Shown in pieces: positions 6,531 to 49,742 of a stretch of DNA of 64,000 nucleotides (its first letter is position 1; the number at the start of each line of letters is the position of its first letter). Position numbers and translations under genes: made by a program. Source of the DNA: Sphaerochaeta sp. Its GTDB lineage: Bacteria; Spirochaetota; Spirochaetia; Sphaerochaetales; Sphaerochaetaceae. The notes beneath the pieces were generated by a model, which saw only the letters and a list, made by a program, of their open reading frames with translations, did no database searches and was not told where the DNA came from. The stretch spans positions 124,001 to 188,000 of the forward strand of contig JAKVPA010000001.1 in NCBI GenBank assembly GCA_022482495.1, written 5' to 3'.

Positions 6531-7438
6531 CGGACGATTTCCTTGGCGATGTTGGCAGCCAGCACCGCGTTGTTCAGCACCAGCGTGATGTTGGCTTCCA
6601 GGCTTGCGCCTCCGGTAAGTTTCTGGATCGTCTCAAGCAGGTACGGAGTGGTCTCTTTTCCTTTGATGCCCTGCCGTTTCATCTCGGCGATGGCCAGGTC
6701 GATCTCCTTGGAAATATATGCAGGATCCATGCTGGCTTCTTCGGGGATCGGGTTGGTCACCAAAAGGCCACGCTCCGGGTCGATCATCCGTTTGGCACGC
6801 CAGATGGAGGCGATGTCCACCGCGGTATCGGAACGGAGCGTCACCTTCAGCCCGCTCTGCCGGGTATAGAAGGCAGGCAGTTCCTCCGTTTGATAGCCGA
6901 TGACGGCCACCCCTTTGGTTTCCAGATATTCCATTGTCCGGGGGAGATCAAGGATCGCCTTGGCTCCGGCGCAGACAACCATCACCGGGGTGCGGGACAG
7001 TTCCTCAAGATCGGCGGAGATGTCCATCGTTTCCGCCACGCCTCTGTGCACCCCTCCGATCCCTCCGGTGGCGAACACCTGGATGCCGGCGAGGTGCGCG
7101 ATGGCCATCGTCGCCGCGACGGTGGTTGCGCCATCTTCTTTCCGAGCGCACAGGTACGGGATGTCCCGTCTGCTCGCCTTGGTGATGGCGGTCCCCTTCT
7201 TCCCAAAGTATTCCAGTTCATCCGCCGAAAGTCCGACGTTGAGTTTTCCACCGATGATTGCGATGGTCGCGGGAACCGCGCCTTCCTTCCGGATGGTCGC
7301 TTCCACCCGCTTCGCCGTCTCCACGTTCTTCGGATACGGCATGCCATGGCTGATGATGGTGCTTTCCAGCGCCACCACCGGCTTGTTGGTGGCCAACGCA
7401 TCTTTCACTTCTTCGGTAATCTTCAGATACTCGTTCAT
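6509..7438 (-). CDS. psuG: Pseudouridine-5'-phosphate glycosidase
   Basis: 309 aa, the normal size. It splits pseudouridine 5'-phosphate into uracil and ribose 5-phosphate. The N-terminus VVALESTIISHGMPYPKN, the central VFATGGIGGVHRG and VVCAGAKAILDLPRTMEYLET and the C-terminal NITLVLNNAVLAANIA are diagnostic. The chosen ATG at 7438 overlaps the psuK stop as ATGA and has GGAAGGAGC upstream; the frame stays open far upstream but inside psuK. With psuK it forms the complete pseudouridine salvage pathway. Confidence 0.95.
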   Translation of the reverse strand: MNEYLKITEEVKDALATNKPVVALESTIISHGMPYPKNVETAKRVEATIRKEGAVPATIAIIGGKLNVGLSADELEYFGKKGTAITKASRRDIPYLCARKEDGATTVAATMAIAHLAGIQVFATGGIGGVHRGVAETMDISADLEELSRTPVMVVCAGAKAILDLPRTMEYLETKGVAVIGYQTEELPAFYTRQSGLKVTLRSDTAVDIASIWRAKRMIDPERGLLVTNPIPEEASMDPAYISKEIDLAIAEMKRQGIKGKETTPYLLETIQKLTGGASLEANITLVLNNAVLAANIAKEIVRQDAKKA

Positions 7439-8382
7439 ATCATTGCTCCTTCCCAATAGGTTGTATGTGCATCCAACACGTCGATCAAGGCATTCCGATC
7501 CAAATGAGGATTGACCGTCTCTTCGCACGCTGCCGTGATCGAAGAAGCGCCCAACGCCGACGCAAGGGCATACCGCACCGAATCGATTCCTTTCTCCATC
7601 AGACCGAAACAGAATCCGGCGACAAATGCGTCCCCGCATCCCGTGGTGTCCACCACGTCGTTTCCCATTATCACGGGCAAGCGGATGAATCGTTTGGAAT
7701 CCGCATAACACGCGCCATCCTCGCCCAACGACACCACGACGCTTTTCATGCCTAAGGCAAGCAATGCGGTGCAGGCTTTGTTCAAGTTCTCCGGGCTGTC
7801 GATGGAAACATGGGAAAGCATTTCCGCTTCCAGACGATTTGGCTTGAACACCGATATCCGGTCCCACATCCCCTCCAGCCGTCCCATTTTGATCGTCGAT
7901 ACAGGATCGACGACCAACCGGTCGCAGATGCCACCCACATACCGAAGGGTTTCCGGTTGGAGATTCGCCTCCGACACCACCAGGGACGCATCACGCACCA
8001 GGCGCTCGCACGGAGCAAGAGACTGGGGCGTAAGCAACGTAGTGGCCTGCATGTCATTGACGGCAAGCTCCATGTTTCCGTCCGGACCACAGAGGTAGAC
8101 GTACCGTCCGGTGGAGGCGCCATGAAACGGAGGCAACACCATGTGAAGTCCGCATTGGTCCGCTTCCGTGAGGACAGCCCGCCCCGCGTCATCATCACCG
8201 ACAGCCGTAATGAAGAACACGGAAAGCCCCAGTTTCGCCATGTTCAGCGCGATGTTGTGCCCGACTCCGCCGAGGGTTGCCCAGACGGTTCCGGGATTTG
8301 AGTCTCGGCACACCAATGGCTTCGTGCTTTTTCCGCAGATATCCTGATTGGTCCCACCGACCACAACGACGTATGGATCCAT
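7435..8382 (-). CDS. psuK: PfkB-family kinase, probable pseudouridine kinase
   Basis: 315 aa, ribokinase-like. It probably phosphorylates pseudouridine to feed PsuG. Features are VVVGGTNQDICGKS at the N-terminus, GGVGHNIALNMAKLG and the PfkB signature DTTGCGDAFVAGFCFG near residue 250 with the catalytic Asp. The frame is open further upstream, but that part runs into the terminator of the preceding gene; ATG 8382 gives the family N-terminus. No Shine-Dalgarno is seen: a TTGGAA-N17-TACACT promoter ends 6 bases before this ATG, so the mRNA may be leaderless. The substrate call rests on overlap with psuG. Confidence 0.87.
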   Translation of the reverse strand: MDPYVVVVGGTNQDICGKSTKPLVCRDSNPGTVWATLGGVGHNIALNMAKLGLSVFFITAVGDDDAGRAVLTEADQCGLHMVLPPFHGASTGRYVYLCGPDGNMELAVNDMQATTLLTPQSLAPCERLVRDASLVVSEANLQPETLRYVGGICDRLVVDPVSTIKMGRLEGMWDRISVFKPNRLEAEMLSHVSIDSPENLNKACTALLALGMKSVVVSLGEDGACYADSKRFIRLPVIMGNDVVDTTGCGDAFVAGFCFGLMEKGIDSVRYALASALGASSITAACEETVNPHLDRNALIDVLDAHTTYWEGAMI

Positions 8383-11525: not shown

Positions 11526-12804
11526 TTTGCACCTCTTCTCCGGTAAACGTATTTCCCTTCAGTCCGGACAACCGTACCGTCAGCAACGTACCGACCGGCG
11601 CTCTCGTCGGGACAACCACCATCTCGTTATGCTCACTGTGGCAGAGCATCATCCCCTGGTCCTGTTTGCTCACCTGCCCCACCAACACTTCGGCGACGGA
11701 GCCGACGCGCTTCTTTTTCTCTTCCCGGACGATCTCCGTCTGGAAAGCGATCAACTCGGAAAGCCGTCGCCCTTTGGTCTCTTCATCAATCTTCCCGTCC
11801 ATGCTCACGGCCCGGGTCCCTTCCCGTTCATTATAGTAGTACATGAAAGGTTCGGTAGCGCGCATCTGGGAGAGGACCCCCAAGGTTTCGTGGAAATCCT
11901 CCTCCGTTTCCTGGGGGAAACCGACCATCACATCCACGGCGAACGTGACGCCGGGAATGAAAGAGCGCATCTTCCCAATCAAATCAAGGAATTGTTCCTT
12001 GGTGTAGTGCCGGTTCATCAGGCGAAGCACCTTGGAAGAACCACTCTGCAACGGAATATGGATGTGCTTGGCCACCTTGGGTTCCGTGGCGATCACTTGA
12101 ATCAATTCGTCGGAGAAATCCTTGGGATGGGGACTGTCGAAGCGGATCCACCGGATGGCATGACACTCCCGGGCGATCATCCCAAGCAGTTGGGGGAACC
12201 GCACATCCCCATCCACATAGCTGTTGACGTTCTGTCCCAGCAGCGTGATCTCCCGAACTCCCTTTCCGTCCAAAAAACGGATCTCCTCAAGAATCTCTTC
12301 CACCGGACGGGATACTTCCCGGCCCCGTACGTACGGTACGATGCAGTACGTGCAGAAGTTGTTGCATCCGTTCATGATGGGAACGAAACTGGAGATTTCC
12401 CCTTCCTGGTAGGACAGCAGATCAAAATGATACGTTTCGCTGTGTTCCAACTCCCCGCCGGTGGCGATATCGACGATCCGTCCTTTGTCGTTGACCGGGA
12501 CGACGTAATCCACCTGGGGGCATTCCTTCTTCAGTTCATCCAAAAGCCGTTGGGCCATGCATCCCGTCACCACGATCTTCAGGTTCCGGTTCTGTTTCTT
12601 CACATGCTCAAAATAACCAAGGCGGCCATAAATCCGATCCTCGGCACTCTTTCGTACCGAGCAGGTGTTGATGATGGCGATGTCGGCATCTTCCAAGCCA
12701 TCGGCTGGGGAAAGACCCGCCGCTTCCAGACGGGTCTGGATGGCGTTGCTCTCCGCCATGTTCATCTGGCAACCGTAGGATTCCAGCCAAAATCGTCGCA
12801 TCAT
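11518..12804 (-). CDS. miaB: tRNA-2-methylthio-N6-dimethylallyladenosine synthase MiaB
   Basis: 428-aa radical-SAM methylthiotransferase that modifies A37 of tRNAs reading U-starting codons. The N-terminal domain has SYGCQMNMAESN and NTCSVRKSAEDR (auxiliary cluster cysteines), the radical-SAM motif is GCNNFCTYCIVPYVRGRE, and a C-terminal TRAM domain follows. The start is ATG 12804, overlapping the folD stop as ATGA; the longer open frame runs inside folD and is not used. The NTCSVR and GREVSR motifs favour MiaB over RimO or MtaB. Confidence 0.95.
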   Translation of the reverse strand: MMRRFWLESYGCQMNMAESNAIQTRLEAAGLSPADGLEDADIAIINTCSVRKSAEDRIYGRLGYFEHVKKQNRNLKIVVTGCMAQRLLDELKKECPQVDYVVPVNDKGRIVDIATGGELEHSETYHFDLLSYQEGEISSFVPIMNGCNNFCTYCIVPYVRGREVSRPVEEILEEIRFLDGKGVREITLLGQNVNSYVDGDVRFPQLLGMIARECHAIRWIRFDSPHPKDFSDELIQVIATEPKVAKHIHIPLQSGSSKVLRLMNRHYTKEQFLDLIGKMRSFIPGVTFAVDVMVGFPQETEEDFHETLGVLSQMRATEPFMYYYNEREGTRAVSMDGKIDEETKGRRLSELIAFQTEIVREEKKKRVGSVAEVLVGQVSKQDQGMMLCHSEHNEMVVVPTRAPVGTLLTVRLSGLKGNTFTGEEVQNG

Positions 12805-37897: not shown

Positions 37898-39657
37898 TTA
37901 CATCAACGTTTCCGCAATGGGATCGACCGAAACGGCTTTTTCCTGGTACATTTCGTCCAGTTCCTTCTCCACTTCACGGAATCGGTCACTCTGCCAGGCG
38001 ACATCATTCCAGTCAAGGAACTTCTGCCTGAGCTGGTTGAAGAAGGTACGCACGTCCTTCTTCTCCGTAAGATTGTACCGTGTCGCAAGAATGCGGAACA
38101 ACTTGTCAAAACTGTAGCGCTGGCGATCCACCGGAACGGCGGCATCCACCGGATCGAACGAGTTCTGCTGCAGATACACGGCGTCCAGGAACTCCGATTT
38201 CTGGTAGACGATGTAGTCATCCACCGAAGTTCCTTCCTCACCGACAACCTTCATCATCTGGTTGACCTCGCTGCCATGGAACAAAACGTCCCTGGCATAG
38301 GCGACCTTCCGCTCGTCGATGATCCCCTTGTACTTGGACCAGGAGGTCAGCGGGTCGATGGCAGGATACTTACGCGCATCGGACCGTTCACGGGACAAGC
38401 CGTGGAACGCACCAACTACCTTCAACGTGGCTTGGGTCACCGGCTCTTCAAAGTTGCCACCGGCTGGAGATACCGTTCCGCCGATGGTGACCGATCCAAT
38501 CTTTCCGTTGCGGAGCCTGACTTTTCCGGCCCGTTCATAGAACTCGGCGATACGGCTTTCCAAGTATGCGGGAAACGCTTCCTCTCCGGGGATTTCCTCA
38601 AGACGACCGCTCATCTCACGCATGGCCTGCGCCCACCGGCTGGTCGAGTCTGCAAGGAGCAGGACGTTCAGCCCCATCTGGCGGTAATACTCCGCCATGG
38701 TCACCGCCGTGTAGACGGACGCCTCACGGGCTGCTACCGGCATGGATGAGGTATTGCAGATGATGATGGTTCGTTCGATCAGGGAACGTCCCGTCTTCGG
38801 GTCGATCAACTCTGGGAATTCCTTCAGGACTTCCACAACCTCGCCTGCACGTTCACCGCATGCGGCGATGATCACGATATCCACCTCGGAGTTCCTGCTT
38901 TCCAAGTGCTGGAGCACGGTCTTTCCCGCGCCGAACGGCCCAGGTACGCAGAACGTCCCGCCTTTCGCCACCGGAAGGAAGGTATCAATGATACGAATCT
39001 TGGTGACCATCGTCTCGTCCGGACGGAGACGCTCGTCATAATTCTTGATGGCACGCTTGACCGGCCAGCTGAACACCATGGACAGTTCGTGGCTGTTGCC
39101 CTTCGCATCCACGATGGTGCAGATATGGTCACGCACGTTGTACGTTCCAGCCGGTTTGATTTCCTTGACGGTATACGGAACGTCGGGCAAAGAGAAAGGC
39201 ACCATGATCTGGTGCTTGAACAGCCCTTCCGGAACGCTTCCGATGGCGTCTGCCGGCCTGACCTTGTCCCCCAGCCTTCACCGACGGGGTGAACGCCCAC
39301 TCCTTGTCAGGGATCGGGTCCAAGGTAGACACCACGCTGCAGGAAGAACCCGCACTGCTCGGCAAGCTTGGGAAGCGGATTCTGCAATCCATCGTACACC
39401 TGGGTGAGCAACCCTGGGCCCAACTCGACGGAAAGCATCTGGCCGGAGAACTCCACGCTGTCCCCGACAGCGACCCCGTTGGTGGATTCAAACACCTGCA
39501 ACGACGCTGTCTTTCCGTTGATCTTGATGACCTCTCCCTTCAGACGAGTGTCGCCTACCTTGATGTAGCCGACCTCGTTCTTGGAGATGACATCCTCAAA
39601 TTCCACTGCCACCATGTTGCCGTTCACCGCGACGACACGTCCGTTCATATTTGCCAT
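37898..39657 (-). CDS. atpA: V-type ATP synthase subunit A (catalytic), frame broken twice
   Basis: About 585 aa once an extra base is removed at 39320-39321 ([13 protein letters not shown]) and another from the C5 run at 39268-39272 ([14 protein letters not shown]). It hydrolyses or makes ATP. The N-terminus [22 protein letters not shown], the non-homologous loop region, Walker [10 protein letters not shown] and [21 protein letters not shown] are typical. ATG 39657 follows GGAGAAGGGT. Read literally, the gene would be destroyed, which is implausible for the catalytic subunit of an otherwise intact operon; both breaks look like base-calling errors. Confidence 0.93.
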
Positions 39658-39668
39658 ACCCTTCTCCA

Positions 39669-40202
39669 CTACTTGCTCTTGACATCGGACTGCAGATTGG
39701 AGAACAACCTGCGGAATTCGATGTTACCCTGTTCGTTGTCGAACAGGTTCTTGCGCGTGATGATACCCAGCTTCAGCGCATAGCCAAGCACGCCTTCCAT
39801 GTCGAAGGTGTGCCCCGCCGTCATTTCGTCAAGCTGTTTCCACTGCAGGATGATCAACGACATCTCCGCGTCCAGGACGTTTTCATTGGACACTGCGGCG
39901 CGCACCGCGTCGGTGATCACATAGCTCTTCTCTCCGTCGTTCTTGTAGGTTTCGCCCGGCAAGGAAAGCCGGCGGGCCCGCTGTTCGGACAACTCCTTGC
40001 GTACCATCAGGCAAAAATGCTGATACGTACGGAGGAATCGATTGTTTGCGGGTTTCCCGGTGACGGCACATTCCACCAGATGGTACGCTTTGCCATCCAT
40101 GGCGCTCCGGCAATCCGCCAGGAACTGGTCCACGGTAATGGGGGAAGGGCTGTCATACCGGAGCATCGGCAACGACGCTACCAGATAATAATAGGAAGCC
40201 AA
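39669..40202 (-). CDS. DUF2764 family protein of the V-ATPase operon
   Basis: 177 aa. In spirochaetes this family sits between the E and A subunit genes, as here, and is thought to take the place of the C/F-type stalk subunits; the function is not proven. The sequence begins ASYYYLVASLPMLRYDSPSPI, is helical, and has a conserved aromatic/acidic centre. The start codon is TTG (40202) with AAGGAG seven bases upstream; the first in-frame ATG is 12 codons further in and would cut the conserved YYYLVASLP start. Confidence 0.88.
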   Translation of the reverse strand: MASYYYLVASLPMLRYDSPSPITVDQFLADCRSAMDGKAYHLVECAVTGKPANNRFLRTYQHFCLMVRKELSEQRARRLSLPGETYKNDGEKSYVITDAVRAAVSNENVLDAEMSLIILQWKQLDEMTAGHTFDMEGVLGYALKLGIITRKNLFDNEQGNIEFRRLFSNLQSDVKSK

Positions 40203-41102: not shown

Positions 41103-41131
41103 TTGACAGATGCCAGATTCAATGGTATGAT
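41103..41131 (+). promoter_or_regulatory. Strong promoter of the glycosyltransferase-ROK-ABC operon
   Basis: TTGACA (41103-41108), a 17-base spacer and TATGAT (41126-41131): perfect -35 and a 5/6 -10. Confidence 0.8.
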
Positions 41132-41134
41132 GAG

Positions 41135-41155
41135 TTTGTTGGAAAAATCAACAAA
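41135..41155 (+). promoter_or_regulatory. Operator-like perfect inverted repeat at the transcription start
   Basis: TTTGTTG-N7-CAACAAA begins four bases after the -10 box and covers the expected start site, a classic repressor position. The ROK regulator encoded as the second gene of the operon is the obvious candidate. A half-match (TTTGTTG at 43410-43416, CAAC at 43428) recurs before the ABC genes. Confidence 0.6.
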
Positions 41156-41166
41156 TGGAGACAAAC

Positions 41167-42300
41167 ATGGCTTGCTGCCTTTTCATTCCCACATATTGGA
41201 GTACGGAAACGTTGCAAAGTTGGAAGGTGTTCGATCATCCCTCTTCCATTACGGAAGAAGGGACGTTGGGAAGAACGTTGGACAATCTCCAGCACATCGG
41301 GTTCTCGGATCACATCATGGTGCTTCCCGCGCCGTGCACTCCCGAAATCTCCCAAAAAGTCGAAACGATCTGCCATGCATATGACCTTCCCGTTACTGTC
41401 TGTACTCCAGATCTTCTGGTTTCCTTGACGGATGCGCTCGGCAAAGCCGGACTTTCCGTAAGTGATCGGGTACTCATCGGAAGCGATTCGTACGGAGGCG
41501 TGCGTAACATCGGGCTTGCCTACGCCGCATTACACGGATACGACCAGATCATCATGATCGACGACGACGAATGCATTTCCCCCGACTACAAAACCCGGGC
41601 GCTCGCCCACATAGGGGAACGGTACAAGGGGAAGATGATCCTTGGAAAGGATGGATGCGTCGAGGACAAAAACGGCAGGAAGACATACGACGGACAGAAA
41701 GGGCCATGGGGTTCACAATGGCCGAAGGACGAACTGTTCAACGCCCAAATACAACAGTATCTCGACGCTCGGGAATCCATCATGGAATCCACGCTCGGCT
41801 TCGGGGGAAACATGGTCATCGACCAGAGGCTCTTTGCCAACGTACCGTTCGATCCGTTCGTGAACCGAGGAGAGGACGACGATTATCTTCTAAACTGCTC
41901 GTACCGGGGCTTCTCCTTTTTCTTTGACAAGGATCTTGTCCTGCTTCACCTTCCTCCAGAACGGGCAAAAGCTTTCTGGAGCAGGCAACGACAGGATATC
42001 GTTCGATTTCTGTACGTGAGGGAAAAACTGCGTTTGATGGGCATCCCGAGAGAAAGTCTTGGCGGATTCATGGAATACTTCACCGGCCCGGATCTTGAGC
42101 GGAAAGCGGTGTGCTCGAGTATTGACGCCGCACAGCGTTTTATGGACACGGATCATTTCGAATGCAACGGTTTCATGGAGAACGCGAAGGCCGCGGTGTG
42201 CGCTGATGCCGGAAAACTCAAGGCAAACTCGGAGGCCTTTCTCCGGTTGATGGATGTATGGCGGGGCGTGATGACGACAATTTGCGGAGGAACCGAATAA
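41167..42300 (+). CDS. Glycosyltransferase-like protein (GT-A fold, family unassigned)
   Basis: 377 aa, cytoplasmic, no signal or membrane segment. A nucleotide-sugar type Rossmann half runs from CCLFIPTYWSTE. The metal-binding motif IIMIDDDECISPDY (DDD, near residue 127) and a later acidic RGEDDDYLLNCSYRG (near 235), with GFGGNMVIDQRLF before it, resemble GT2-type glycosyltransferases. Start ATG 41167 is placed by GGAG eight bases upstream; the ATG four codons earlier has none. The stop overlaps the ROK gene as TAATG. I cannot name donor or acceptor; the company of a sugar ABC transporter suggests it acts on or makes the transported sugar. Confidence 0.65.
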   Translation: MACCLFIPTYWSTETLQSWKVFDHPSSITEEGTLGRTLDNLQHIGFSDHIMVLPAPCTPEISQKVETICHAYDLPVTVCTPDLLVSLTDALGKAGLSVSDRVLIGSDSYGGVRNIGLAYAALHGYDQIIMIDDDECISPDYKTRALAHIGERYKGKMILGKDGCVEDKNGRKTYDGQKGPWGSQWPKDELFNAQIQQYLDARESIMESTLGFGGNMVIDQRLFANVPFDPFVNRGEDDDYLLNCSYRGFSFFFDKDLVLLHLPPERAKAFWSRQRQDIVRFLYVREKLRLMGIPRESLGGFMEYFTGPDLERKAVCSSIDAAQRFMDTDHFECNGFMENAKAAVCADAGKLKANSEAFLRLMDVWRGVMTTICGGTE

Positions 42301-43406
42301 TGGCGAGGAGAATCCGCAACTCAACGAAAATCTGCAGGTCTCTCTGGCAACATCCGCTCGACAGCAGAGCGGATCTCGCGAAACGTCTTGGCATCGACAA
42401 ATCGACCATCACATCCGAAACAACGGATTTGATCAAGCGAAACGTGATCTGCGAATTGCCAAAATCAAGAGCGATGCAAAATTCGGGGACGACGGGTCGA
42501 AGGCCCATTCCCCTTTCGTTGAACAAGGATTACGGTACCGTACTCGGCATTTCCATCCAAGCGGGTTCTTATGCGCTCTCAGCGGTGAATCTCGCGGGCG
42601 AAGCGGTGTTTTCCAAAGAAGTGAATGAGTCGATCACGAAGGATAACATAACGGACGAAATCATCCGTATCCAACGGGATTTTATTCGTGAACACGGACA
42701 AACAGTCCCCCGTTGCCTGGGTATCGGCATCGGCGTCGGCGGCTTGATCAACTGGGAGAACAACACCATCAGGTATTCCGTACCACTGGACGTAAGAGAA
42801 GAATTTTCCTTCATCGATGAAATCCATCGCAAGACCTCTTTGCCTGTATCGCTGGAGAACAACGCAAATTGCTGTGCATGGGCAAAACTTGCCTTCCCCA
42901 AAAATCCCCCACCCCGAAATTTCCTGTTCCTGCTGGTGGAATTCAAACAGGCGCTCGTCCCCCACAAACAATATGGAGGGGTCGGCATCGGTCTCGGCAT
43001 CGTCATCAACGGCAAAATCCATTACGGGGTGCATTCCTTTGCTGGAGAATTCCGCAGTGTGTTTTGTTCGGAACGGAACGAGAACCAAACGTCGCTCAAC
43101 AAAGCGGAGACGGACAGAATCCTCACGGATCAGGACGTAATGACACGCTTCATCAACGAGCTTGCCGCCAATATCGCCATGTTCTCGAATACCCTGGACA
43201 TCGGGAAAATCTTCATAAGCAGCGATCTCGAAACCCCCGGCCGCCAATTATGCGACGTAACGAGGAAGGCGCTTTCTGACAATTGGATTTTCCCCGTCGA
43301 GAAAGAAGTTCCCGTGGACTACTCTTCGTACGGCGCGAATATGATCGCCTATGGGGCCGCGGGAAAACTTTTCCAGGTTTTGCTCGACTCAGGGAGAATT
43401 CCGTAA
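42300..43406 (+). CDS. ROK-family transcriptional regulator
   Basis: 368 aa. An N-terminal winged helix (residues about 5-65, DSRADLAKRLGIDKSTITSE) is followed by the ROK domain with GIGIGVGGLINWENN, SLENNANCCAWAKLAF and GVGIGLGIVINGKIHYG. The usual zinc motif CxCGxxGC and an obvious kinase Asp motif are missing, so it is a regulator rather than a sugar kinase. The ATG overlaps the previous stop (TAATG) with GGAGG eight bases upstream. It probably represses its own operon through the inverted repeat at 41135-41155, with the imported sugar as inducer. Confidence 0.88.
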   Translation: MARRIRNSTKICRSLWQHPLDSRADLAKRLGIDKSTITSETTDLIKRNVICELPKSRAMQNSGTTGRRPIPLSLNKDYGTVLGISIQAGSYALSAVNLAGEAVFSKEVNESITKDNITDEIIRIQRDFIREHGQTVPRCLGIGIGVGGLINWENNTIRYSVPLDVREEFSFIDEIHRKTSLPVSLENNANCCAWAKLAFPKNPPPRNFLFLLVEFKQALVPHKQYGGVGIGLGIVINGKIHYGVHSFAGEFRSVFCSERNENQTSLNKAETDRILTDQDVMTRFINELAANIAMFSNTLDIGKIFISSDLETPGRQLCDVTRKALSDNWIFPVEKEVPVDYSSYGANMIAYGAAGKLFQVLLDSGRIP

Positions 43407-43409
43407 CCT

Positions 43410-43449
43410 TTTGTTGTGTTTGCGATGCAACGTATGTTGCTGTACATAC
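43410..43449 (+). promoter_or_regulatory. Inverted repeats in the ROK-ABC gap
   Basis: The 65-base gap contains TTTGTTG with CAACG 12 bases later, and a perfect GTATGT-N6-ACATAC (43432-43449) just before the Shine-Dalgarno AAGGAG. It could be a second operator or an mRNA hairpin that raises expression of the binding-protein gene. No clear promoter is seen. Confidence 0.35.
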
Positions 43450-43471
43450 TTTTTGGGAAAAGGAGAAATAC

Positions 43472-44833
43472 ATGTCAACGACAAGAAGAAACTTGGGTAT
43501 CGTTCTGGTCCTGTTGCTTGCCTCCTGTATGCTTTTCGCCGCCGGTACGAAGGAACAAATCCCGACCGCGACGGAAGGAACGGAGACGACGACGCTGAGT
43601 ATTCTGGACTATAGCGACGCTACCGCGCCCGGATATGAGGAATCCGAGGCGGTCTGGCAGAAGTTCATGGATGAGAATCCCGGAATCGTTTTGAAAAAGG
43701 AAGACCTCACCAACGAGGCGTTCCATCAGAAATTGGCTGCCTACGTCGCAGCGGGGACAATTCCCGATGTAATGTACATGTATCCGTCGGGTCGTTCGGC
43801 GGTACTGCATCAAAAGCATCTGGTCAAGGATCTTGTCCCATTGTTGGGCAGCGATTTTCTCTCACATTTCCTGCCGGCCGCGCTCAATACGGATGACCAA
43901 AGCGGACATTATCTCGCTATGCTCCCCCAGTCAATCTGTTATTCCAGCGTCATGTACATCAATACGAAACTGCTGAAGGACAACGGGCTTTCTCTTCCGA
44001 AAACCTACGAAGACCTGAAGGCGATGGTTCCCAAGCTTAAGGCGAAAGGCATCCAGACCGTTTTGATGGCGAACAAGGATGACTGGGTAATGCAGTCGTG
44101 CCTGTTCTCCACCGTTGCCGGAAGATTTGTGAACAAGCAGTGGATTGATGACGCGAAAGCGGGGAAAGTGAAGTTCACGGATCCAGAATTTGTTGATGCG
44201 CTTCGGTTCATCGACACATTGTACAAGGACGGGGTCCTGTCCCGCAATACCATCCAGCTCTCCTATGGAGAGGTACCCGGACTGTTTGCTTCAGGCAAGG
44301 CGGCGTTCCTCATCGATGGAGACTGGAGGCAGAGTGCGTTCCTTACCGATAAGTCGTCCGGACAGGCGCTGATCAGCCCTGAAGACCAGAAGAACAACAT
44401 CGCGCTGATGGCGTTCCCTGCGATTCCCGGCGAAAAGTATCCTGGGGTGGTTTCCTCTACGCTCGGTTGCGGATACGGCATTTCTTCGGCAATTCCCGCA
44501 GGTTCCGCAAAAGAACAGGCTGCGACGAAACTGTTGAAGTACCTGTACTCGCAGGACGTGCAGAAACAGTTCCTTGAATTGGGGAGATACATCACTTCCC
44601 GCACCGACGTGACCAGCGACAAACTGGAGCCGTTGACGACGAAGATGATGGAATACTACTCTACCATTAAAGGAACCTGTTATGTACTTGATTCCGCACT
44701 TGATCCCAGCATCTACACGGTGCTGAACAAAGTGCTACAGGAAATCGGTCTTGGGACGAAGACCCCGGAAGCGGCTGCGGCGGAAGTCCAAACCGCCATG
44801 GACGCATGGATCGCTTCCAATACCCAGAAATAA
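43472..44833 (+). CDS. Sugar ABC transporter substrate-binding protein (family 1)
   Basis: 453 aa. An extracytoplasmic receptor for an oligosaccharide or similar solute. A signal peptide (TTRRNLGIVLVLLLASCMLF) contains LASC, a possible lipobox with Cys19, though cleavage near FAAG is also possible. Domain features of the CUT1 family are AYVAAGTIPDVMYMYPSGRS, SVMYINTKLLKDNGLSLPKTYEDL, FASGKAAFLIDGDWR and EAAAAEVQTAMDAWIA. The start has AAGGAGAAAT. Two permease genes follow; there is no ATPase gene, so a shared MsmX-like ATPase is expected elsewhere. Confidence 0.93.
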   Translation: MSTTRRNLGIVLVLLLASCMLFAAGTKEQIPTATEGTETTTLSILDYSDATAPGYEESEAVWQKFMDENPGIVLKKEDLTNEAFHQKLAAYVAAGTIPDVMYMYPSGRSAVLHQKHLVKDLVPLLGSDFLSHFLPAALNTDDQSGHYLAMLPQSICYSSVMYINTKLLKDNGLSLPKTYEDLKAMVPKLKAKGIQTVLMANKDDWVMQSCLFSTVAGRFVNKQWIDDAKAGKVKFTDPEFVDALRFIDTLYKDGVLSRNTIQLSYGEVPGLFASGKAAFLIDGDWRQSAFLTDKSSGQALISPEDQKNNIALMAFPAIPGEKYPGVVSSTLGCGYGISSAIPAGSAKEQAATKLLKYLYSQDVQKQFLELGRYITSRTDVTSDKLEPLTTKMMEYYSTIKGTCYVLDSALDPSIYTVLNKVLQEIGLGTKTPEAAAAEVQTAMDAWIASNTQK

Positions 44834-44889
44834 CTGACAATACGTTCAGGTCCCCCGTCGGGGCCTGAACATTTTGAGAGGAGGTCTTC

Positions 44890-46022
44890 ATGGATTCATC
44901 AACAAATAAGGTAAAAAAAAAGCCTATTGCTGGATGGTGATCCCATCGTTTGTGATTTACTTGTTCGTCATGGCGTTCCCCATCATTCTGTCACTGGTGT
45001 TGTCGCTGAGTAATTTCAGCGGTGGAAGGATTTTTGGAAACGCAGGATGGAAGATCACCGGGTTCCAGCACTACGGAAGGCTTTTTTCTGATCCGTATTT
45101 CTGGCACGCATTCAAAAACAACATCCTCGTGGTGTTGATCTCGGTCTTCGGGCAACTACCCCTCGGACTTTTTCTTGCATATCTCATCTACCGTAAGATT
45201 GTGAAATTCGGCGGTTTCTGGCAGGGTATTCTGTATGTGCCCTCCGTCATCTCCGTCATCGTAATCGGCATCATGTGGAATCTGATCTTCTCTCCGTACG
45301 GACCCCTTTCCGAACTGATGAACCGATGGTACGCCTTCTCTTTCTCGAACAATCTCTCGAGGGTCCTTGCGGGGTCGTTCGGCGCCGACGGAAACCTTGT
45401 GGTGACGGACCAACTCGTCAAAAGCATTATCGCCATCAATCCCCAGACCGCCGCGGCGGCATTTTCCGCACCCGTTCCTGGTTTGTCAGAAATGCTTCGC
45501 GGGATATCGACGGAAGGAATCCAGACGATCGTCTCCGATCTTACCAATTTACTCGCTCCCGTATGGACTTCTGATTTTTTGAACAAGGAAGGAACGGCGA
45601 TGGTTCCCATCCTGTTCGTCACGCTCTGGTGTTGGACCGGTACATACCTTATCCTTTTCCTTGCAAACATGCAGAAGATCAACGCACAGACGATCGAATC
45701 CGCCCAGATCGACGGAGCAAAGGAAAAGAGCATCCTCGCGCACATCATTCTTCCCGAGCTCTCGGGATCCATCATGAACGCGGCGGTGCTGTGTATTTCG
45801 GGATCGCTGAATTCCTTCGCGATGATCTACGCAATGACGGGAGGAGGACCGGCGAGAATCACTCAGGTCCTTTCCATATATATGTACGAGAAAGCATTCA
45901 TGGGCACGCCGGATTATCCGCTTGCGAACGCCATCTCGATCATGATGGTGTTGTTCAGCGTCGTGTTGATCATCTTAACGCGTTCCATTCAAAAACATTT
46001 CGGAGGCACACATGAAGACTGA
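44890..46022 (+). CDS. Sugar ABC transporter permease (MalF/UgpA type), frame broken in an A9 run
   Basis: About 377 aa if one A is added to the A9 run at 44913-44921 (MDSSTNKVKKK then AYCWMVIPSFVIYLFVMAFP). ATG 44890 follows GAGAGGAGG. There are six membrane segments and the EAA loop ESAQIDGAKEKSILAHIILPEL near residue 275. Between the third and fourth segments lies an extra periplasmic stretch of roughly 75-100 residues (ELMNRWYAFSFSNN to SDFLNKEGTAMV) not seen in short MalF homologues. If the A9 is real, an internal GTG/ATG (44934) could start a shorter protein, or slippage could restore the frame. Confidence 0.85.
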
Positions 46023-46926
46023 TTGCCGCAGGGAACGAGGAGTAGGAGCGTTCCTTTGGAAGTTTTTCGCATATGTGATTATGATTCTTTTCGCATTGCT
46101 CGCCATCGTACCGTTGATCTGGCTTATCATCAACTCCTTCAAGACCACGGTTGAATTCCGTTCGAACATGATCGGCCTGCCCCACACGTTCTATCCCCAA
46201 AATTATCCGGGCGCATGGAAAGTCGGGAATTTCGGAGTGCTGTTCTGGAACTCCGTCTTGTATACGACGGTGTCCGTCTCAGTGGCGGCGTTCCTTTCCC
46301 TCCTGACGGGATTCGCGTTCGCAAAACTGACGCGTCATTCCACGAAGACGATGTATTCCATCTTCTCCTTGGGAATTTTGCTGACTACGCAGACCTTGAT
46401 GGTCCCGTTGTTCCTGCAGGTCTCCCAACTCGACGCTTTGCTTGGAGGATTCTTCGGAAAACTCGGTTGGTGCAATCCGAACTCGTTTCATCTGTTCTAC
46501 AACACCAGATTCGGCGTCATTCTCGTTTACATCGGTTCGCTCCTGCCCCTCGGTGTGTATCTTTGCACCGATTATGTGCGAAGTGTCCCGAATTCCTTGG
46601 TGGAGGCGGCATTGATCGACGGCGCGGGATACTTCAGGATATTCCTGTCCGTCATCATACCGATGTGCACTCCCATTCTGACGACCATCGGGCTCCTCAA
46701 CATCCCGACGATCTGGAACGAGTTCGCGCTCATCAACATCATGGTTTCGAGCATGAAGTACCAGTCATTGCCCTTAGGCATCTATAAATTCTCGGGGACG
46801 CTCTCCTCGGACTACGGGAAAGAATTCGCGGCGCTGGTGGTCGGACTCATGCCGATGCTGATCTTCTACCTTGTTTTCAGGAAACAGATCACGACCAGTG
46901 TGGGCGGCGGAGCAATAAAAGGATGA
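46012..46926 (+). CDS. Sugar ABC transporter permease (MalG type)
   Basis: 304 aa, six membrane segments, with the EAA motif NSLVEAALIDGAGYFRIFLSVIIP near residue 200 (the contact to the ATPase). The second half of the heterodimeric CUT1 pore. It overlaps the first permease by 11 bases. Its stop lies two bases from the stop of the convergent XRE gene, with no terminator visible between them. Confidence 0.93.
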   Translation: MKTDCRRERGVGAFLWKFFAYVIMILFALLAIVPLIWLIINSFKTTVEFRSNMIGLPHTFYPQNYPGAWKVGNFGVLFWNSVLYTTVSVSVAAFLSLLTGFAFAKLTRHSTKTMYSIFSLGILLTTQTLMVPLFLQVSQLDALLGGFFGKLGWCNPNSFHLFYNTRFGVILVYIGSLLPLGVYLCTDYVRSVPNSLVEAALIDGAGYFRIFLSVIIPMCTPILTTIGLLNIPTIWNEFALINIMVSSMKYQSLPLGIYKFSGTLSSDYGKEFAALVVGLMPMLIFYLVFRKQITTSVGGGAIKG

Positions 46927-47599: not shown

Positions 47600-48559
47600 A
47601 TGAAGAATATTTTGATCGTCGGAGCGCTCGGACAACTTGGGTCCGAGATCGCGTGGGAAGCAAGGAAACGATACGGGAACGACCATGTCGTGCTCACGGA
47701 CATCAGGGATGACGTGAACCGCGATCTCATCGCAAGCGGACCGTTCGAACGACTGGACAGCAGGGACGGAGAAGCGCTTGCGAAGATCGTCCGCAGCTAT
47801 CATATCGATACCATTTTTCACTTGGCGGCGCTTTTGTCCGCCAACGGGGAACAACATCCCCAAAAGGCATGGGACGTGAACATCAACGGACTGCTGGCGA
47901 CGCTCGAGGTGGCGAGAGAAGAAGGAACGGGTGTGTTCGTCCCTTCTTCCATCGGAGCTTTCGGACCCACCACGCCAAAGATGAATACGCCACAGGATAC
48001 CGTTCAGAGACCGGCTTCGATGTACGGCGTGACGAAAGTGACCGGCGAACTTCTGTGCGATTACTACCACGCGAAATACGGCGTGGACACCCGAGGAGTG
48101 CGTTTTCCCGGAATTATCAGCAACCTGACGCCTCCGGGAGGCGGAACTACCGATTACGCGGTGGAAATCTATTATGCTGCGGTTGACCGAGGGCGTTACG
48201 CCTGTTTTCTCAAAGGCGATACATATCTGGACATGATGTACAGTCCGGACGCGGTTCGAGCCGTCTTCCAGCTTATGGAGACTTCTCCACAACGGCTCAA
48301 GCACAGGAATGCGTTCAACATCACTTCGATGAGCCTGTGCCCGGAAGACATCGCAAGCAGCATCAGAAAAAGAATGCACGACTTTGTGATCGAATACGAT
48401 GTCGATCCTGTGCGCCAGGCCATCGCCGACAGCTGGCCGGATCGTCTTGACGATCATGCGGCGCGGGAAGAATGGGACTGGAAACCGGCATATGGTCTTG
48501 ATGCCATGACGGACGATATGCTTGAAACAATCGAGAGGAGGGAAAAACGACATGCTTGA
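47600..48559 (+). CDS. tdh: L-threonine 3-dehydrogenase, short-chain (SDR/epimerase-like) type
   Basis: 319 aa. It oxidises L-threonine with NAD to 2-amino-3-ketobutyrate. The Rossmann motif GALGQLGSEIAWEARKRYG is at the N-terminus. The catalytic Ser/Tyr/Lys are in FVPSSIGAFGPTTPK and MYGVTKVTGELLCDYY, and RFPGIISNLTPPGGGTTDYA is the substrate motif distinctive of this TDH group, as opposed to the zinc MDR type. Start ATG 47600 is preceded by GGAGTGTCACC. It overlaps kbl by eight bases, which fixes the pathway. Confidence 0.92.
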   Translation: MKNILIVGALGQLGSEIAWEARKRYGNDHVVLTDIRDDVNRDLIASGPFERLDSRDGEALAKIVRSYHIDTIFHLAALLSANGEQHPQKAWDVNINGLLATLEVAREEGTGVFVPSSIGAFGPTTPKMNTPQDTVQRPASMYGVTKVTGELLCDYYHAKYGVDTRGVRFPGIISNLTPPGGGTTDYAVEIYYAAVDRGRYACFLKGDTYLDMMYSPDAVRAVFQLMETSPQRLKHRNAFNITSMSLCPEDIASSIRKRMHDFVIEYDVDPVRQAIADSWPDRLDDHAAREEWDWKPAYGLDAMTDDMLETIERREKRHA

Positions 48560-49742
48560 CGAAAAAACGGCACGGGAAATCGACCAATTTCTGAAAACTC
48601 AGAAAGACGAAGGAACATTCAAAAACGAACGGGTCATTGAAAGCCCGCAGAAGGCTTCCATTCAGGTGGGAGGAAAACAGGTACTGAACTTTTGCTCGAA
48701 CAACTACCTCGGACTCTCCGATGACGAGCGCGTAATCCAAGCGGCGAAGGATGCGATGGACAGATGGGGGTTCGGCCTTTCTTCCGTTCGTTTCATTTGC
48801 GGTACGCAACGGATCCACAAGGAACTCGAGGACGCGCTTTCCTCCTTTCTTCATAAAGAAGATACGATCCTGTTTTCCAGTTGCTTTGATGCGAACGGCG
48901 CCCTGTTTCAGCCGTTGGTGGGACAGGACGACGCGATCATCAGCGACGAGCTGAACCATGCGTCCATCATCGACGGGACGCGACTGAGCAAGGCGGAGCG
49001 TTTGCGTTACAGGCATGCCGACATGGACGATCTGAAGCGCTGTCTTGAACAGGCGAAGGAAAAGCGAAGACGCATCATCTGTACGGACGGGGTATTTTCC
49101 ATGGACGGCGATGTGGCCAGATTGGATAAAATCTGCGATCTTGCCGATACCTATGACAGCATGGTGATGGTCGACGACTCCCATGCGACCGGATATCTCG
49201 GGGATACGGGAAGGGGATCAGGCGAATACTGGCATGTTGAGGACAGGATAGATTTGCTCACCACTACATTCGGCAAAGGACTCGGCGGCGCCAGCGGCGG
49301 GTGCATCAGCGGAAAAAAGCGACTGATCGACCTGTACCGTCAAAGTGCGCGTCCCTATCTTTTCTCCAACTCGCTCGCACCCGCCATCTGCGGCGCGACG
49401 CTTCAGGTACTGAAGATGCTTTCGGATGAAAATCCCTATGCGAAACGGACAAAGGAAAACGCGGCCTATTTCAGAAAGAAAATGCAGGAAGCCGGATTCG
49501 ACCTGATCAAGGGGGATACCGCCATCATCGCCGTGATGATCTACGACGAGGCGAAGGCCGTGGAGATCGCGAACGAACTTCTTGCGCAAGGAATCTACGT
49601 CATCGGATTCACCTATCCTGTCGTCCCCAAAGGCAAGGCAAGGATACGCGTACAATTATCCGCAGCGCATACGAAAGAGGACATCGACCGGGCGGTGAAC
49701 GCTTTTGTCAAGATAGGGAAAGCATCGGGCATTATCCGGTAA
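48552..49742 (+). CDS. kbl: Glycine C-acetyltransferase (2-amino-3-ketobutyrate CoA ligase)
   Basis: 396-aa PLP enzyme that cleaves 2-amino-3-ketobutyrate with CoA to glycine and acetyl-CoA. It has FCSNNYLGLSDDERV, GFGLSSVRFICGTQRIHKEL, VDDSHATGYLGDTGRGS and the PLP lysine in TTFGKGLGGASGG. Start ATG 48552 follows GGAGGG. With tdh it forms a two-step threonine-to-glycine route. A strong terminator follows the stop. Confidence 0.96.
   Translation: MLDEKTAREIDQFLKTQKDEGTFKNERVIESPQKASIQVGGKQVLNFCSNNYLGLSDDERVIQAAKDAMDRWGFGLSSVRFICGTQRIHKELEDALSSFLHKEDTILFSSCFDANGALFQPLVGQDDAIISDELNHASIIDGTRLSKAERLRYRHADMDDLKRCLEQAKEKRRRIICTDGVFSMDGDVARLDKICDLADTYDSMVMVDDSHATGYLGDTGRGSGEYWHVEDRIDLLTTTFGKGLGGASGGCISGKKRLIDLYRQSARPYLFSNSLAPAICGATLQVLKMLSDENPYAKRTKENAAYFRKKMQEAGFDLIKGDTAIIAVMIYDEAKAVEIANELLAQGIYVIGFTYPVVPKGKARIRVQLSAAHTKEDIDRAVNAFVKIGKASGIIR

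Follow-up and report, generated by a model that had tools for sequence, protein, structure and literature searches.

The window, i.e. the whole 64,000-nucleotide stretch of Sphaerochaeta sp. DNA analysed here, contains at 41103-46926 an operon delimited by the first base of TTGACA (-35) and by the stop codon of permease 2. The genes follow one another in the order 377-aa GT-A-like protein (GT below), ROK regulator, sugar-binding protein (SBP), permease 1 (P1), permease 2 (P2):

41103..41131, + strand: sigma-70-like promoter TTGACA-17-TATGAT (11/12 consensus matches)
41135..41155, no strand: palindrome TTTGTTGGAAAAATCAACAAA, probable operator for ROK (motif also present ahead of orthologous operons)
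41167..42300, + strand: GT-A-like putative glycosyltransferase, 377 aa (frame, motifs, profile comparison)
42300..43406, + strand: ROK-family regulator with N-terminal winged helix (PF00480, 59.7 bits; cut-off 22.9)
43472..44833, + strand: extracellular sugar-binding protein (SBP_bac_1, 120.9 bits)
44891..44941, + strand: short frame at the start of permease 1 (ATG preceded by AGGAGG; in-frame TGA after 16 codons)
44913..44921, + strand: A9 run ahead of a G; either an assembly indel or a candidate site of recoding (L018 has this break as well)
44934..46022, + strand: permease 1 frame (BPD_transp_1, 62.8 bits)
46012..46926, + strand: permease 2 (BPD_transp_1, 46.8 bits)

The GT start codon (ATG, 41167) stands behind a GGAG ribosome site, and its stop codon (TAA, 42298-42300) overlaps the ROK start codon at 42300 as TAATG (42298-42302); this coupling had been pointed out in the preliminary description of the locus, as had the IDDDE and EDDD motifs of a GT-A-like first gene product, and all are there. 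The SBP, the ROK protein and both permease domains exceed their Pfam cut-offs. The ROK protein combines its above-threshold domain with an N-terminal HTH region, to which the MarR-type HTH profile aligned (residues 10-50) with a sub-threshold score of 19.2 bits; it is thus of the ROK regulator class. An SBP_bac_1 protein with two BPD_transp_1 permeases is the gene set of a CUT1-type importer, permease 1 being frame-broken; the SBP and two permeases described earlier behind the regulator were recovered as domains, the first permease not as one continuous frame. Upstream of the operon, on the opposite strand, are V-ATPase genes. Downstream are genes for an HTH-cupin regulator (minus strand), an SDR dehydrogenase and a glycine C-acetyltransferase, which we take to be a separate threonine-degradation unit. 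A glycine C-acetyltransferase-like gene is located near GT both in the window (48552-49739) and in L008 (1-585), possibly by coincidence.

The promoter is a consensus match only: six such sites occurred in the scanned region, with 6.5 expected in shuffled sequences. The palindrome directly follows the -35/-10-like pair, and TTGTTGRAAAAATCAACAA is a unique perfect match in its own genome. If up to three mismatches were allowed, the window had one match (0.03 expected), and the 2.25-Mb genome had one perfect and one three-mismatch match, the reversed control giving none. The motif precedes the GT-first operons of the window (TTTGTTGGAAAAATCAACAAA) and L018 (CAATTAATTGAAAAAATCAACTAATTG) as well as an operon ROK-SBP-P1-P2-GH20 in L070 (GTTTGTTGAAAAAATCAACAAAC); L008 has two copies, one beside each of its divergent genes (GT side and ROK side). 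Since the window and L070 served to define the pattern, their own matches are not independent; those in L018 (three mismatches) and L008 (two and three) are. The divergent spacers of L004 and L005 carry a palindrome, TGTTGGTTTWTTATTCAACCAACA, unlike the window motif in sequence, and L020 and L021 have one of yet another sequence than the window's. The upstream regions of L071 and L078 contained no palindrome of this kind. We infer that the ROK protein binds the palindrome.

The frame of permease 1 is shifted by -1 relative to the frame opened by ATG 44891, which has a strong Shine-Dalgarno sequence. Right after the A9 run the -1 frame encodes AY-x-W, residues found at this place in relatives with an in-frame gene; as AY-x-W is coded before any internal ATG, internal initiation is disfavoured. 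Judging from the sequence, recoding (transcriptional slippage or -1 frameshifting) and a homopolymer or assembly error are about equally probable causes of the break. The same A9 and frame break are present in L018, from another genus (12235-12460); permease 1 is continuous in L004, L005, L020, L021, L070 and L071. There are only seven A9 runs in the genome of the window, three of them in identical IS3-like copies. In these copies (L080, L081 and L082; G000:C1 near 387465, 504091 and 523846) two transposase-like frames adjoin at A9G, the shift being again in the -1 direction. On the other hand, V-ATPase subunit A is encoded in two pieces, 37898-39205 and 39307-39669, and there is a frame break in the C9 ROK gene as well; therefore, indel errors are likely in the assembly. 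Runs of A10 or A11 are few in G080, with about 4 runs of at least 10 versus some 70 of exactly 9. The V-ATPase A gene (window 37898-39669, minus strand) has two frame breaks within about 60 bases, at about 39250-39310. IS3-type elements are known for recoding. One report (PMC6211511) describes slippage at a run of A in an element of the IS3 family; Antonov et al. (PMC3711429) classed the ABC-transporter frame-transition clusters that they describe as translational coupling.

A relative of the importer points to its ligand. The operon of G025 (L070), ROK-SBP-P1-P2-GH20, encodes proteins 73% (SBP), 67% (P1), 71% (P2) and 48% (ROK) identical to those of the window, and its GH20 domain was recognized with an E-value of 8.5e-90. 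Since this GH20-bearing orthologous operon stands behind the shared palindrome, the ligand of the window importer is probably a beta-N-acetylhexosaminide, a prediction that comes mainly from one relative. No GT match was found in the G025 genome (completeness 86%); GT is therefore not needed for import. In the genome of the window a single GH20 gene is present, divergent from a paralogous ROK-P1-P2-SBP set (L078) whose SBP is 49% identical to that of the window; this GH20 and that of L070 are 34% identical over 397 residues. In L078 the paralogous ROK gene beside GH20 (about 7295-8165, minus strand) has a frame break that involves no homopolymer. As to the ATPase, a UgpC-type gene is located outside the operon, at G000:C7:76477-77562 (512 bits, cut-off 432), and its product probably serves the window importer. 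The absence of an ATPase and of a glycosidase from the operon, initially thought noteworthy, was dropped as a sign of novelty: an ATPase of UgpC/MsmX type encoded elsewhere in the genome is ordinary, and GH20 genes are found beside the paralogous importer and in the L070 operon.

In the GT protein, IDDDE occupies residues 130-134 and GEDDD residues 234-238 (initial Met not counted). In an alignment of 14 homologues, D131-D133, E134, G234, E235 and D236 are invariant in all 14, and more generally DDD(E), GGN, RGED and H260 are invariant. The GEDDD string presumably resembles the WGGEDDD of beta-1,4-galactosyltransferases. The frame is under purifying selection, as differences between the window and L018 amount to 0.33/0.27/0.69 at codon positions 1/2/3 (374 codons).

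As the preliminary description had it, no GT family could be assigned. The window protein scored below the Pfam cut-off for Glyco_trans_2_3, a GT2 profile (16.5 bits versus 27), had no match in the NCBIfam scan and, by phmmer, nothing in PDB at E <= 1. A Pfam scan of the 14 homologues at E up to 10 touched Glyco_trans_2_3 in 11, Glycos_transf_2 in seven and Glyco_tranf_2_3 in four; for Glyco_trans_2_3 the best E-value among the 14 was 1.5e-5, with none over the cut-off among those with bits listed. For GT7, PF02709 had no match in the own genome and none in the scan of the 14 homologues. For a profile comparison we took six Spirochaetota proteins of GT2/GT7C type (6 of 10 PF02709 loci, picked for a single-domain frame); hhalign aligned the 14-homologue profile to theirs with E 6.5e-6 (probability 85%), DDD facing DxD and RGED facing GxED, and a wider alignment of homologues (A3) gave E 5.4e-5 (66%). 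Together with the DxD and GED motifs, this relates the 377-aa protein to GT-A glycosyltransferases at the superfamily level only, with moderate strength; no family within GT-A can be named.

The AlphaFold model, made with the window, L004 and L005 sequences (three of the 14 homologues), was poor (pLDDT 46), and Foldseek with it gave no match at E <= 0.001. Among the non-significant matches the mutase MtdL ranked first (E 0.059); when the PDB was searched with the A3 profile, it came second (E 0.095), after 2nbs (0.042). Similarity to MtdL or GT75 was thus not significant in either search. One could speculate from these ranks that the protein has a GT-A fold and acts as a nucleotide-sugar mutase or modifies sugars in some other way; we consider this rather improbable, as what is shared, RN-x-G ... 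DDD, amounts to a short stretch that is generic for GT2, and the model behind the first rank is of the low quality just mentioned. A GT78 reading (mannosylglycerate-synthase-like) was set aside, as the Foldseek E-values of 2y4j and 2y4m were no better than 0.44 and 0.59, respectively.

GT homologues were found in 11 of 139 genomes of the family and in 6 of 392 genomes of the phylum (own genome included in both counts); both genomes of the same genus that were searched, G082 and G083, lacked one. A search of phages gave no match, 36 pattern stretches in viral contigs included no relative, and the plasmid search returned one Clostridia record. The close homologues examined number eight (45-60% identity, window included). 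Six of the eight have the full ROK-SBP-permease-permease set, in three arrangements: (i) GT-ROK-SBP-P1-P2 (window and L018); (ii) GT divergent from ROK-SBP-P1-P2 (L004 and L005); (iii) ROK-SBP-P1-P2-GT (L020 and L021). One more, L008 on a 3.1-kb contig, has the regulator only, ROK being divergent from GT. The contig of L019 ends just past GT; upstream are a ribose-type ABC set (identified by eye), an aldolase, a PfkB kinase and a lyxose isomerase. In a distant clade, L022-L027 (26-29% identity to the window GT), an importer operon precedes GT in all six cases: SBP, two permeases and a frame of about 650 aa or longer, the SBP of L024 being partial (by eye). Two of these ~650-aa proteins were scanned; one was over the cut-off for NAGPA (phosphodiester glycosidase), one below.

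Still more distant homologues (L036, L037, L038, L039 and L077) had no neighbour matching the window ROK, SBP or permeases. Because of these five, the link to transporters holds for two clades rather than for the entire family; in the two clades, the homologues are by no means always away from transporters. L037 has LIV-type transport genes nearby (by eye), L039 a NAGPA-like frame, and the GT copy of L036 an internal stop codon. The Acetoanaerobium homologue (L077, 11992-13728) ends C-terminally in a cyclic-nucleotide-binding domain. That distant homologues are located elsewhere would suit the view that GT is a chance neighbour with no role in the system; with three gene orders, two clades and a shared palindrome against it, we regard this as highly improbable. 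The association of GT with the importer is conserved, and the two are probably co-regulated.

The Acetoanaerobium homologue also adjoins a GT4 gene, and building glycans is the usual role of GT2-type enzymes. Both would agree with a role of GT in making a surface or storage glycan, for which the importer supplies sugars; the regulon would then be shared through precursor supply and not through contact of GT with the imported molecule. However, no other glycan-assembly gene is present in or beside the window operon, and the coupling to importers is repeated in two clades; we find this explanation unlikely.

The reading we prefer, tentatively and at somewhat less than an even chance, is ROK-controlled inducible import combined with cytoplasmic glycosyl transfer onto the imported sugar. 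It builds on what was computed: which genes are present, that they are conserved, that orthologous operons have a palindrome in common, and that the GT-A relationship holds at the profile level; as for ligand type, donor, acceptor and direction of reaction, we would expect the following. The operon would be repressed by ROK and induced by a sugar. A CUT1-type ABC importer, borrowing a shared UgpC/MsmX-type ATPase, would take up an oligosaccharide, probably with beta-linked N-acetylhexosamine. The first gene would encode a soluble, metal-dependent GT-A glycosyltransferase, GT2/GT7-like and probably inverting, which would move a sugar from a nucleotide sugar onto the imported glycoside or its breakdown product. 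Against import followed by transfer, GT might be switched on by the same signal yet have a target other than the imported sugar.

The single operon for GT and importer would also fit a cycle in which GT makes a small glycoside, e.g. a compatible solute, and the importer regains what leaks out. According to the accessible parts of two reports, there is a precedent in glucosylglycerol, made by GgpS and re-imported by Ggt (PMC6753628, PMC4060947). Nevertheless, regulation by ROK and the orthologous operon with GH20 rather suggest a substrate whose catabolism is induced, and the window operon is without a phosphatase or other solute gene; such a cycle is doubtful.

Sugar importers are normally read as the opening step of breakdown. 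If import followed by glycosyl transfer is true, a conserved, co-regulated GT would imply that oligosaccharides are remodelled after import in some bacteria, and for an unclassified GT clade there would be an acceptor to test. With GH20 and GT exchanged for one another in orthologous operons that follow a single palindrome, the question is open to direct tests. A more specific version would be an undescribed, inducible import-and-extend class, in which a HexNAc-oligosaccharide is glycosylated uncut in the cytoplasm by a GT-A enzyme of no known class that shares the ROK switch, permease 1 being produced in two genera only via -1 recoding at A9G; taken as a whole, this is improbable. Titles and abstract openings in the literature gave no description of the GT-importer-ROK combination.

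Among known systems, the window system presumably belongs with the CUT1 importers that have a ROK regulator and a shared MsmX/UgpC ATPase: it likewise has ROK, SBP, two permeases and, probably, an ATPase encoded elsewhere, but a GT gene in place of a glycosidase or kinase. The L070 operon of G025 has the same importer, ROK and palindrome; it differs by GH20 at its end and by lacking GT. With GT-A enzymes of GT2/GT7 type (PF00535, PF13632, PF13641, PF02709) the window GT shares aligned DxD-type, GGN and GED motifs, although it reaches no Pfam cut-off. The GgpS synthase family is, we assume, unrelated to the window GT. GgpS with GgtABCD, as presented in the accessible parts of the reports, is a working unit of glycoside synthase and re-uptake ABC importer, to which GT and importer of the window may correspond; those parts describe no ROK operon for the glucosylglycerol system. 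Finally, the SBP-P1-P2-NAGPA-like-GT operons of L022-L027 have, like the window, a GT homologue associated with an importer; L022 differs from the window by another regulator (HTH and Sugar-bind domain) and by having, in addition, a ~650-aa protein that contains a phosphodiester glycosidase domain.
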